Assembly (NCBI RefSeq): GCF_000176155.1
Contig: NZ_ACZO01000007.1
Coordinates: forward strand, 434,001-498,000
Source of the DNA: Vibrio metschnikovii CIP 69.14
GTDB taxonomy: Bacteria > Pseudomonadota > Gammaproteobacteria > Enterobacterales > Vibrionaceae
Direction of reading: 5' to 3'
Length of the DNA stretch: 64,000 nucleotides
This document shows, piece after piece, positions 12,461-38,097 of the stretch. A model generated the notes under the pieces. That model did not search any database, was not told the origin of the DNA, and saw only the letters and a program-made list of their open reading frames with translations. Numbering within the stretch: the first letter of the stretch is position 1; every line of letters starts with the position of its first letter. The position numbers and the translations under genes were made by a program.

Positions 12461-13216
12461 ATGCATACAACGTCATTAATCAATCATGAAAAACTGGCTC
12501 ACCCTAAACCACAATCAACAGCCGATACCGTCACCACGGTCAACAGTATTGATGCTTTAGCGATGGTAGAGCATGGCAGTGAGTTAACCTTAAGTATTAC
12601 CACACCGGTAGGAACAAAATTTCTTTGCAAAACCGCGTTTATTGGTACTCATTCAGACACTTATTTACTGATTGAAACGCCTAAAATTTCAGCCGATGAC
12701 TTGAATTATTACTTCCAGCAAGGTTTTTGGATCCATATTCGCGCTATTTCATCGCGCGGTGAAGGGGCAAAAATTCATTTCCGTAGCCAACTGCTGCATA
12801 CCATTCAAGATCCTTTGGCTCTTTTGGTACTTTCTATCCCCAATACCATGCAGGTGACGCAATTGCGTCAAGAACCCCGTTATGAGGTTAATTTGGCGGC
12901 TCGTGTGACTTGTGAAAACCAGCGTTCTGAATGTGAGGTGAGAGATCTATCGAAAAATGGTTGCCGTTTTATCACACCACCATTAAGCCGCCATTGGCAA
13001 GTTGGCGATCATGTCAGTATTGATATCTCGACTGAGCGACAGCATAGCCAAGTTTTTTCGCCTCTAACTGGACGAATTTGCAATCTACAGCGCTCGATTC
13101 ATCACGTTCGGTATGGCTTGAAATTTGACGAGTCAGGAAGAGAAAGTGCGAAAACGCTGCTCGGACAGTTGAAATTCAATGGTACTAAACTGATGCTGAC
13201 GAAATCATCTCAATAA
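12461..13216 (+). CDS. plzD: PilZ-domain c-di-GMP receptor (PlzD-like)
   Basis: Cytoplasmic c-di-GMP effector of 251 residues, equivalent in size and sequence pattern to V. cholerae PlzD (VCA0042). The N-terminal half (about 30-130) is a YcgR-like PilZN barrel. The C-terminal half is a PilZ domain with both binding motifs intact: RQEPR (RxxxR, in the interdomain linker) and DLSKNG (D/NxSxxG). The start ATG follows GGAG at a good distance. It lies 180 bases after a diguanylate cyclase gene and converges with the Qrr-like RNA that ends about 20 bases downstream. A role in motility, biofilm or virulence output is known for the family; the specific partner here is not shown. Confidence 0.92.
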   Translation: MHTTSLINHEKLAHPKPQSTADTVTTVNSIDALAMVEHGSELTLSITTPVGTKFLCKTAFIGTHSDTYLLIETPKISADDLNYYFQQGFWIHIRAISSRGEGAKIHFRSQLLHTIQDPLALLVLSIPNTMQVTQLRQEPRYEVNLAARVTCENQRSECEVRDLSKNGCRFITPPLSRHWQVGDHVSIDISTERQHSQVFSPLTGRICNLQRSIHHVRYGLKFDESGRESAKTLLGQLKFNGTKLMLTKSSQ

Positions 13217-13236: not shown

Positions 13237-13345
13237 AAAAAAATAGCCAGTCGCAACACGGCGACTGGCTTGTATTGGGTGAACAAATTGTCGTTCACTA
13301 ACAACGTCAGTTGATTAAAACGGCCCTCGGCTTAAGAAGGGCCGC
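13237..13345 (-). ncRNA. divergent Qrr-like small RNA
   Basis: Read leftward, this stretch has the architecture of a Qrr quorum-sensing RNA. The first hairpin is CGGCCC / GGGCCG around a TTAAGCCGA-containing loop. The near-invariant AACTGACGTTGTTAGTGAA core follows, then a TTGTTCACC stretch, then a terminator stem AGCCAGTCG / CGACTGGCT with a T-run. It is clearly related to the canonical copy at 37993-38097, with a compensated first stem. It differs in the bases just before the core (TTTTAAT in place of CACCTAGC), and no sigma-54 -24/-12 element stands at the right distance. Only half LuxO sites are seen upstream; a TATAAT hexamer (minus strand, 13369-13374) could drive it. Boundaries are approximate. 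Confidence 0.78.
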
Positions 13346-13606
13346 AACAAATTATGCACTAGGTTTAATTATATTTAAAGTTGCAATCAGTGACTGGCGT
13401 TATATTTACTAATATTTTCATTCGGTTAATTGCAAAAAAACATCATTAAACTCAGAAAAACAAGGTTTAGATCACACTCAAACACGGCAGCGATTAAAGC
13501 CTTCAAGCTCAGTGATGAATCGCGGTTAGCAATAACAACGGTAGGAGGGGGAAGTGGACTTCGCTATACTTCTCCATCGCTTAATAGCCACCTTTAGGTC
13601 AGTATA

Positions 13607-14530
13607 ATGAATTATCTCAGCACATTTTTAAAAGGGATCGCTATGGGAGCAGCAGATGTTGTTCCAGGTGTCTCTGGCGGCACTATCGCTTTTATTACCG
13701 GAATCTATGATACTTTATTAGAAAGTATTCGGCGCATTAACCCACACCTAATCCAACATTGGCGACAACATGGGTTGCTCTCCACTTTTCGCCATATCAA
13801 TGGCGGATTTTTATTGGTTTTATTCAGTGGCATTTTTACCAGCATACTCACCTTAGCGAAATTCATCTCTTGGCTATTAGTTAACCAACCTATTCCCACG
13901 TGGTCATTTTTCTTCGGATTAATCATGGTCTCGGTGTGGCATATGCTGCAGCAAGTAGAAAAACGGCAGGCTTCACGTTTTCTCGCTTTTATCGTCGGTG
14001 GTGTCTTCGCTTATACCATCACCATGATTAATCCTATTCAACTCGATGTGACAACATTCAATATCGTGCTAGCAGGCAGCATTGCGATTTGTGCAATGAT
14101 TTTACCTGGCATTTCAGGCAGCTTTATTCTTCTATTACTCGGCATGTATACTCCGATCCTCAATGCTGTCAAGACGTTACAAATTGATATGCTGAGCTTA
14201 TTTATGTTTGGCTGTATCCTAGGCATTACCAGCTTTTCCCATCTTTTATCATGGCTACTCAAACGTTATCGAGATGTCACTCTGACTTTTTTAACGGGTC
14301 TGATGATGGGAACACTACCTAAAATTTGGCCGTGGAAAGAAACGTTAACGTGGCGAACCAACTCCAGTGGCCAAGAAGTTCCGGTATTACAGCACAACCT
14401 ATTGCCTTGGGATTACGAGCAACTCACCACTCAACCAGCACAATTAGGCATTGCCATACTATGCATGCTAAGTGCGGTGATCATCGTCCTTGGACTAGAA
14501 AAAATTGCTCAGCGTGAACAGAGCCATTAA
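13607..14530 (+). CDS. popT: DUF368 undecaprenyl-phosphate translocase (PopT)
   Basis: Polytopic inner-membrane protein of 307 residues with about eight hydrophobic segments. The N-terminal motif GAADVVPGVSGGTIAFITGIYD and the internally repeated AMILPGISGSFILLLLGMY are DUF368 signatures; the duplicated PGxSG loops suggest an inverted-repeat carrier. The family was recently shown, in V. cholerae VCA0040 among others, to return undecaprenyl phosphate to the inner face of the membrane for reuse in peptidoglycan and surface-polymer synthesis. The start ATG follows AGG at 8 bases. The gene is monocistronic, with a roughly 250-base upstream region after the Qrr-like RNA promoter and a 370-base gap downstream. 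Family call firm; substrate from published work on homologues. Confidence 0.9.
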   Translation: MNYLSTFLKGIAMGAADVVPGVSGGTIAFITGIYDTLLESIRRINPHLIQHWRQHGLLSTFRHINGGFLLVLFSGIFTSILTLAKFISWLLVNQPIPTWSFFFGLIMVSVWHMLQQVEKRQASRFLAFIVGGVFAYTITMINPIQLDVTTFNIVLAGSIAICAMILPGISGSFILLLLGMYTPILNAVKTLQIDMLSLFMFGCILGITSFSHLLSWLLKRYRDVTLTFLTGLMMGTLPKIWPWKETLTWRTNSSGQEVPVLQHNLLPWDYEQLTTQPAQLGIAILCMLSAVIIVLGLEKIAQREQSH

Positions 14531-37880: not shown

Positions 37881-37982
37881 TTGCAATTTGCAAATGCAAT
37901 TATGAAACACGACGCTATAAAACTGCGAAAATCAGCCGATTTTGCTGGTTTTGTCACCAAAAAATATTGGCACGGTAATTGT
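37881..37982 (+). promoter_or_regulatory. LuxO site and sigma-54 promoter of the Qrr RNA
   Basis: TTGCAATTTGCAA at 37881-37893 exactly fits the LuxO palindrome TTGCA-W3-TGCAA; an overlapping TTGCAAATGCAA follows directly. TTGGCACGGTAATTGT at 37967-37982 has GG and GT dinucleotides ten bases apart, matching a sigma-54 -24/-12 element (consensus TGGCAC-N5-TTGC), about 12 bases before the RNA start. LuxO~P with sigma-54 activates qrr genes at low cell density in vibrios. Confidence 0.87.
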
Positions 37983-37992
37983 ATTGTAATAA

Positions 37993-38097
37993 GTGACCCT
38001 TTTAAGCCGAGGGTCACCTAGCCAACTGACGTTGTTAGTGAATATTTTGTTCACAAATAGATAGCCAGCCGCCCAATTGCGACTGGCTTTTTTTTTT
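37993..38097 (+). ncRNA. qrr: Qrr quorum-regulatory small RNA
   Basis: A roughly 105-base RNA with all Qrr elements. It begins with hairpin GTGACCC / GGGTCAC around a loop with TTAAGCCGA. The invariant CCTAGCCAACTGACGTTG and TTAGTGAATA core follows, then TTGTTCACAAATA, and a terminator stem AGCCAG(C)CG...CGACTGGCT with ten T. Qrr RNAs act with Hfq by base-pairing through the core, repressing hapR/luxR-type and activating aphA-type mRNAs. The LuxO site and sigma-54 promoter are in place upstream. Its T-run ends one base before the stop codon of the convergent glgB. Which numbered Qrr this is cannot be told without comparison. Confidence 0.95.

Follow-up and report, generated by a model that had tools for sequence, protein, structure and literature searches.

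Between a plzD-like gene and a VCA0040-like gene, the minus strand of the window (the whole stretch of DNA that was analyzed, 64 kb in length) carries a divergent, Qrr-derived small RNA that is, in our judgement, likely to be a conserved and working sRNA, which would have lost both its control by LuxO and sigma-54 and its pairing region II, would be driven by sigma-70, and would serve other or fewer targets. Judged by Rfam's model of the family, it is a Qrr homologue. We did not file it as a functioning Qrr since it lacks the sigma-54 promoter, the LuxO box and region II; most likely, it still works like a Qrr in the sense of a pairing sRNA that is placed under other control. The features concerned are, in window coordinates:

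12461 to 13216, plus strand: plzD-like gene (PilZ/YcgR-domain protein with PilZ and PilZNR domains), convergent neighbour of the RNA
13237 to 13344, minus strand: divergent small RNA derived from a Qrr, its start predicted near 13345 to 13343
13237 to 13270, minus strand: intrinsic terminator, a 10-pair stem (13270 to 13245) plus a U-run (fold and pair count)
13279 to 13298, minus strand: hairpin GTGAAC...GTTCAC (fold and pair count)
13294 to 13313, minus strand: invariant Qrr core CAACTGACGTTGTTAGTGAA (alignment and exact core search)
13313 to 13320, minus strand: TTTTAATC replacing CACCTAGC, with pairing region II lost (comparison with the copy at 37994)
13321 to 13344, minus strand: stem-loop 1, stem CGGCCC/GGGCCG, whose loop keeps the aphA pairing region I (AAGCCG; region I after PMC3262071)
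13346 to 13485, minus strand: 140-nt upstream region, the presumed promoter/control region (one substitution relative to V. injensis)
13351 to 13359, minus strand: GTGCATAAT, a conserved -10-like box (CATAAT), identical in the window, V. injensis and genome G167, on the old sigma-54 -12 position (compare V. furnissii)
13374 to 13386, minus strand: relic LuxO half-site (TTGCAA at 13386 to 13381; LuxO-box search)
13607 to 14530, plus strand: VCA0040-like gene (PF04018), the divergent neighbour whose protein was used in the tree
37994 to 38096, plus strand: ordinary Qrr paralogue used for comparison, with a sigma-54 site at 37968 to 37982 and a LuxO box at 37881 to 37893

The Rfam model RF00378 (Qrr) scores the segment from 13237 to 13344 at 89.7 bits (E = 1.4e-15; curated cut-off 50) and matches one other place in the window, the plus-strand copy at 37994 to 38096 (103.2 bits); two further matches, at C5:717226 (111.4 bits) and C6:846739 (88.8 bits), complete the four found in the genome of the window's strain (G000; 3.8 Mb, 11 contigs). 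The 18-base Qrr core is exact in both copies of the window, with 0.02 chance occurrences expected in 64 kb, and it was not found elsewhere in these 64 kb when up to three mismatches were allowed. Along the RNA, the order of elements is CGGCCC-loop-GGGCCG, TTTTAAT, CAACTGACGTTGTTAGTGAAC, the 10-pair terminator and the U-run, and its fold has a z score of -6.33 against shuffles, none of 200 being as low. The initial annotation, made from the letters of the sequence, had described a Qrr-like RNA with a compensated first stem and the core at this position, in which TTTTAAT replaces the bases that precede the core, and this description was borne out. In an alignment of 12 Qrrs, 98.1% of the cells are paired and two-sided changes occur at 6 of the 22 pairs (4 of the 6 pairs of stem 1 and 2 of the 10 pairs of the terminator), a pair count reached by none of 500 column shuffles; the pairs altered in the divergent copies are pairs 1, 3 and 5 of stem 1, and they are changed on both sides, so that the stem is rebuilt. 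The U-run terminator would fit a dependence of this RNA on Hfq.

The RNA had also been placed convergently with the c-di-GMP receptor gene plzD at a distance of about 20 bases, and this holds, as plzD ends at 13216 and the U-run of the RNA at 13237; the assignment of plzD itself fits the domains of its product and the matches of that product to the solved VCA0042 structures (E about 1e-106). The terminator hairpin (13245 to 13270) lies 28 nt beyond the plzD stop codon on the opposite strand, and read-through from plzD would consequently be antisense to the RNA. The nearest upstream frame on the same strand (at least 100 amino acids) begins about 3 kb away, past two genes of opposite orientation, and the RNA therefore needs a promoter of its own.

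This promoter does not resemble that of an ordinary qrr gene. The other three Qrr copies of the genome have TTGGCAC and, at -12, TGC or TTGT, together with CACCTAGCC, and the copy at 13237 has none of these. Between 13346 and 13620, there is no match to the sigma-54 pattern TGGCAC-N5-TTGC with up to two mismatches, the nearest one on the same strand lying at 13652 to 13666, within the next gene. A search with the LuxO box consensus TTGCAW3TGCAA (PMC11443567) found upstream of the RNA solely the two-mismatch relic at 13374 to 13386, as compared to a perfect box at 37881 to 37893 for the copy at 37994; TTGCAA half-sites persist at 13435 to 13430 and at 13386 to 13381. The earlier statement that neither a sigma-54 element nor a full LuxO palindrome stands upstream is thus upheld. 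We rejected the notion of an ordinary LuxO-driven Qrr with an overlooked promoter, given that no site exists at two mismatches and that relatives reveal its former position. The V. furnissii promoter ends in ATGGCACGGTTAATGCATAATTCATTTCGACCC, and its counterpart in the window is GTGCATAATTTGTTGCGGCCC, with no TGG ahead of it; compared with V. furnissii, the -12 part of the sigma-54 element survives in the window, and the GG of the -24 element is gone. Neither the copy at 13237 nor that of V. injensis retains the GG of the -24 element or a full LuxO palindrome, the G167 copy likewise has no -24 element, and the sister clade keeps them, a distribution that supports the earlier proposal of a Qrr relative uncoupled from LuxO.

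A TATAAT had been pointed out upstream in place of the usual promoter. It exists in the window (13373 to 13368), but it is missing in G167 and is not the conserved promoter element; this is the CATAAT (13356 to 13351) within GTGCATAAT, which is conserved in all three genomes. From the end of CATAAT to the first base of the first stem, the distance is 6 bases in the window and 5 in G167, a spacing that would be as for a sigma-70 -10 element. The candidate sigma-70 pair TTTAAA/CATAAT is weak (9/12), its -35 part TTTAAA is missing in G167, and the number of sigma-70-like sites (2 found versus 1.0 +/- 0.9 in shuffles) lies about within one standard deviation; for these reasons, we can only infer the use of sigma-70. 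On this understanding, the GTGCATAAT box most likely serves sigma-70 RNA polymerase as the promoter of the RNA, which would no longer be driven by phosphorylated LuxO. Outside GTGCATAAT, the upstream region of G167 aligns poorly with that of the window. In the 200 nt upstream of the G167 copy, one site resembles a LuxO box with a single mismatch. By eye, it overlaps the GTGCATAAT box and, given this overlap, may be a chance occurrence; no such site with one mismatch is found upstream of the window copy. Two other readings of the upstream region were dropped: it gave no fold signal as a structured RNA (z of 0.29 on the minus and -1.19 on the plus strand), and an 18-codon frame seen by eye has no ribosome site.

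The origin of the divergent form can be traced through its genomic neighbourhood. A plzD scan of the named genomes yielded seven loci. V. injensis (G074), whose plzD is 96% identical, has the same divergent Qrr in the same place (82.3 bits). At four of the seven loci, an ordinary Qrr lies between plzD and the VCA0040-like gene; it adjoins plzD directly in V. cincinnatiensis (G035), and in V. furnissii (G055), V. aestuarianus and Vibrio sp. SCSIO 43135, it adjoins the VCA0040-like gene, about 1.5 kb from plzD. No Qrr match was present at the plzD loci of V. rotiferianus and of an uncultured Vibrio. The three ordinary copies whose upstream DNA was read have -24 elements (TTGGTATG in V. cincinnatiensis, ATGGCACG in V. 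furnissii, TTGGCATG in V. aestuarianus), with LuxO-type TTGCA boxes farther up. When the RNA together with 136 upstream bases was searched against the genomes of the genus, 144 of 227 matched at E <= 1e-12; among the matches listed, only those in G000 and V. injensis are near full length, and the others start no more than 20 bases ahead of the RNA. ACCTAG is present in 68 of the 71 distinct Qrr copies from the loci collected, the three without it being those of the window, V. injensis and G167. A sigma-54 pattern was found in 67 of the same 71 copies; it missed these same three and, wrongly, the copy at 37994, whose -12 part reads TTGT.

G167 (2.6 Mb, 80% complete) has the same gene order of plzD, Qrr and VCA0040-like gene; its divergent copy shares TTTTAATCAACTGACG and GTGCATAAT with the window and has a first stem rebuilt as TGGCTC/GAGCCA. 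Its VCA0040-like protein is 80% identical to that of the window (75% for V. cincinnatiensis), and its plzD 55%. In a tree of 25 VCA0040-like proteins, from which duplicate and partial rows had been left out, the window, V. injensis and G167 form one clade (100/99); its sister consists of V. cincinnatiensis, G034 and G054, genomes whose ordinary copies have TTGG -24 elements. Since the divergent clade is sister to genomes with ordinary copies, a single origin fits: the divergent form would have arisen once, in the common ancestor of the divergent clade, and comparison shows that the qrr gene linked to plzD and VCA0040 there lost the -24 element and the LuxO boxes as well as its ACCUAGC pairing bases. 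An artefact of a single strain was discarded, as V. injensis and G167 have the same form; breaks in luxO and hapR are no cause either, both genes being uninterrupted in V. injensis. No match was obtained in a near-match search among 50,697 phage records, and a phage origin was likewise dropped.

The losses just described might suggest a decaying pseudogene, in which region II and the promoter drifted after the control by LuxO had ceased and the remainder is a residue. Such a course would account for the missing region II, -24 element and LuxO boxes, and stem 1 of V. injensis has one broken pair, which counts against constraint. We nevertheless regard this explanation as unlikely. When the window is compared with V. 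injensis, 1 substitution is seen in the 140 nt upstream of the RNA, and 2 plus one gap in the RNA itself, as against 30 substitutions plus gaps in the next 121 nt, 9 differences in the 20 nt after plzD, and 53 in the 756 nt of plzD; with bases treated as independent, Fisher tests of the 140-nt block give 2e-10 versus the next stretch and 0.0016 versus plzD. The RNA and its upstream region are hence far more conserved than their flanks, and paired changes have rebuilt stem 1. Relative to the window, the G167 RNA is identical in 83 of 108 columns, including TTTTAATCAACTGACGTTGTTAGTGAACG without a break, although the plzD proteins are only 55% identical; such a run of 29 identical bases in a distant genome also speaks against decay. 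High upstream identity alone is not unique to the divergent copy: in the same pair of genomes, the promoters of the ordinary qrr genes differ at 25/140, 26/140 and, for the nearly as conserved promoter at 37994, 5/140 positions, the last not being distinguishable from 1/140 (p = 0.21). The initial annotation had named a lack of conservation in relatives as the observation that would speak against it; the RNA and the upstream block turned out to be conserved in V. injensis. In our assessment of these comparisons, simple decay is not the explanation for the divergent copy. The RNA and its new 140-base upstream region appear to be under strong constraint (in two genomes, and for the RNA also in the third, the form being known in three genomes of which two are close relatives), and would thus have been kept as a working RNA gene.

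What such an RNA might still regulate can be gauged from its pairing regions. In Qrr4 of V. harveyi, a change in region I (AGCC) abolishes only the activation of aphA, and a change in region II (ACCU) abolishes the control of aphA, luxR and luxO (PMC3262071). The RNA at 13237 has kept region I, and region II is gone. In G000, we assigned hapR by its place between hpt- and lpd-like frames, and luxO and aphA likewise by context, with PF10400 as a further basis for aphA. Duplexes were predicted between 32-nt target windows and the first 66 nt of each RNA, with 60 shuffled targets for comparison. For the hapR, aphA and luxO leaders, the copy at 37994 is predicted to pair with -24.1, -25.9 and -25.5 kcal/mol, none of 60 shuffles being as low in each case (its aphA duplex reaches -27.8 at finer steps); the corresponding values for the 13237 RNA are -19.1, -18.3 and -18.8 kcal/mol, with 8, 7 and 12 of 60 shuffles as low. 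Predicted values for luxO leader pairing that were obtained without shuffles are -20.4 for the ordinary chromosome 1 copy, -15.1 for the divergent V. injensis copy and -23.9 for the G167 RNA on the luxO of G000; because the G167 RNA pairs more strongly than an ordinary copy, luxO is the least clean case. The activation of aphA and the repression of luxO should, by these predictions, be lost, and any action on hapR should be weak at best. The RNA has kept its core, stem-loops and terminator and should for this reason remain a pairing RNA of the Hfq type, which would then serve other targets. The changed target set envisioned by the initial annotation is accordingly half substantiated: the predicted loss of known targets fits the published mutants, but no new target was found. 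The pattern GTYRGTTGRTTRRRRY, searched with one mismatch, gave 37, 35 and 19 hits in G000, G074 and G167, respectively, versus 27, 29 and 15 for the reversed control, and nothing stood above this control. Among 12 GTYRGTTGRTTRRRRY loci inspected, one is the RNA itself, and the rest lie inside or antisense to frames, in tRNA-like or frameless DNA, or near starts. One of them, G000:C4:21427-21442, is a one-mismatch complement to the new segment located 173 nt before a DusB-like frame, with the identical 16 bases in G074 and G167; another match is found at the start of a 448-amino-acid frame. With counts near those of the control, both are leads only.

A core that is fully kept next to a lost mRNA-pairing region II would also suit a decoy, which would take up a binding partner of the other Qrrs, either a QrrX-like sponge or Hfq, and in this way tune the ordinary copies instead of mRNAs; the accessible text of PMC9732341 describes the QrrX sponge of V. 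cholerae as pairing with a conserved Qrr domain. A partner was not found for the window's RNA, and we consider this role very improbable.

The quorum circuit that surrounds the RNA is itself altered. A Qrr of 95 to 96 nt lies between uvrB and luxO in G092 and V. cincinnatiensis. The distance from the uvrB stop codon to a fixed LuxO motif is 140 to 141 nt in G000 and V. injensis versus 313 to 328 nt in G092 and V. cincinnatiensis, a gap that is shorter by about 170 to 190 nt, and no Qrr is detected in the uvrB-luxO gap of G000 and V. injensis even at E = 1, their four Qrr matches each being elsewhere. The absence of qrr1 beside luxO in these two multi-qrr genomes contradicts the published generalization that multi-qrr species always have qrr1 in this position, and a LuxO circuit without qrr1 could therefore be studied directly in V. 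injensis. In the window's strain, luxO (G000:C6:1264146-1268117) is split by a DDE transposase gene (305 amino acids), and hapR (G000:C8, about 147473-148021) has an early TAG in the helix-turn-helix region; the V. injensis genes are both uninterrupted. As far as the accessible parts of these papers go, work on the V. metschnikovii group restates the general LuxO-Qrr scheme (PMC10668802), and a LuxO-independent yet sigma-54-dependent route to a Qrr has been described in V. fischeri (PMC10162802).

An RNA that has been rewired within quorum sensing, for instance under HapR or the LuxO half-sites, and that still acts weakly on hapR through its core, would draw on the persisting TTGCAA half-sites, on the predicted pairing of the core with the hapR leader, and on the intact luxO and hapR of V. 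injensis. However, there is no -24 element on which an activator of the LuxO type could work, the hapR pairing falls within the shuffled range, and both genes are interrupted in the window's own strain; we hold this possibility to be quite unlikely and continue to favour a conserved pairing RNA under sigma-70 control that serves other targets.

Qrr relatives without a sigma-54 element recur in vibrios, and the losses of the promoter and of region II go together. In 227 genomes, RF00378 counts were compared by eye with exact CACCTAGCCAACTGACG counts, and the RF00378 count was the higher one in G000, in G074 and in 23 others; those 23 genomes contain 114 Qrr matches, of which 62 were fetched (those of up to 96.7 bits and three others). 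Pooling these 62 with the earlier loci gave 128 Qrr copies, a pool that is biased towards odd copies and whose members are not independent: 101 have both TGG[CT][AC] upstream and ACCTAG/ACCTCG, 7 have the first only, 5 the second only, and 15 neither, with the TGG[CT][AC] test being loose, as it admits at least G162:C68:20339, a copy that fails a stricter pattern. The coincidence of both losses in other vibrio copies would also be compatible with pseudogene formation, and some of the 8 of the 62 fetched copies that fall below the Rfam cut-off may be decayed. G162 has three Qrr-like copies within 8 kb (C68:20339, 23068 and 28114) plus one at C10:24664; the sigma-54 element is absent from three of the four by either test and from the fourth by the stricter one. 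A Qrr-like fragment of 47.9 bits, below the cut-off, occurs at G044:C3:15606-15703 on a 36.7-kb contig. At G163:C11:37822-37932, a Qrr relative has neither a sigma-54 element nor region II (CATTTAACC for CACCTAGCC), with stem and core intact, and it looks like an independent parallel case.

Among known systems, the 13237 RNA is closest to the Qrr2-Qrr5 type (RF00378), especially to the V. cincinnatiensis and V. furnissii copies that neighbour the VCA0040-like gene, with which it shares its place, stem-loops, core, region I loop and terminator; it differs in lacking the -24 element, the LuxO boxes and region II, and in having a rebuilt first stem and a conserved new upstream region. Qrr1, encoded beside luxO, has the same core and overall fold and is a known example of a Qrr whose pairing region and target set are reduced (PMC3262071), but it lacks region I and keeps region II and the control by LuxO, the reverse of the 13237 RNA in all three respects. 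The copies at G163:C11:37822, G188:C2:967598 and G162:C68:28114 are like the 13237 RNA in lacking the sigma-54 element and an intact region II; their replacement bases differ from it, and none was seen beside plzD in the loci tabulated. A literature search, with subscription papers mostly outside its reach, found no report of such a Qrr.

To a broader proposal, we assign roughly even weight: a qrr gene may have been recruited to another regulon. Its promoter would have changed from LuxO/sigma-54 to sigma-70 by building on the old -12 element, and with the quorum target site lost as well, the outcome would be a conserved 'orphan Qrr' that has inputs and targets of its own. The ancestral qrr1 beside luxO is likewise gone from at least two genomes of the lineage, and similar orphan Qrrs would have arisen repeatedly in vibrios. 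In the species studied, Qrr copies are very alike and under common LuxO control, which, according to the accessible text of PMC8043402, makes it hard to ask about the role of a single copy. A natural copy that has the core but neither region II nor the control by LuxO separates these parts, and its divergence shows a way for sister sRNAs to depart from a common circuit.
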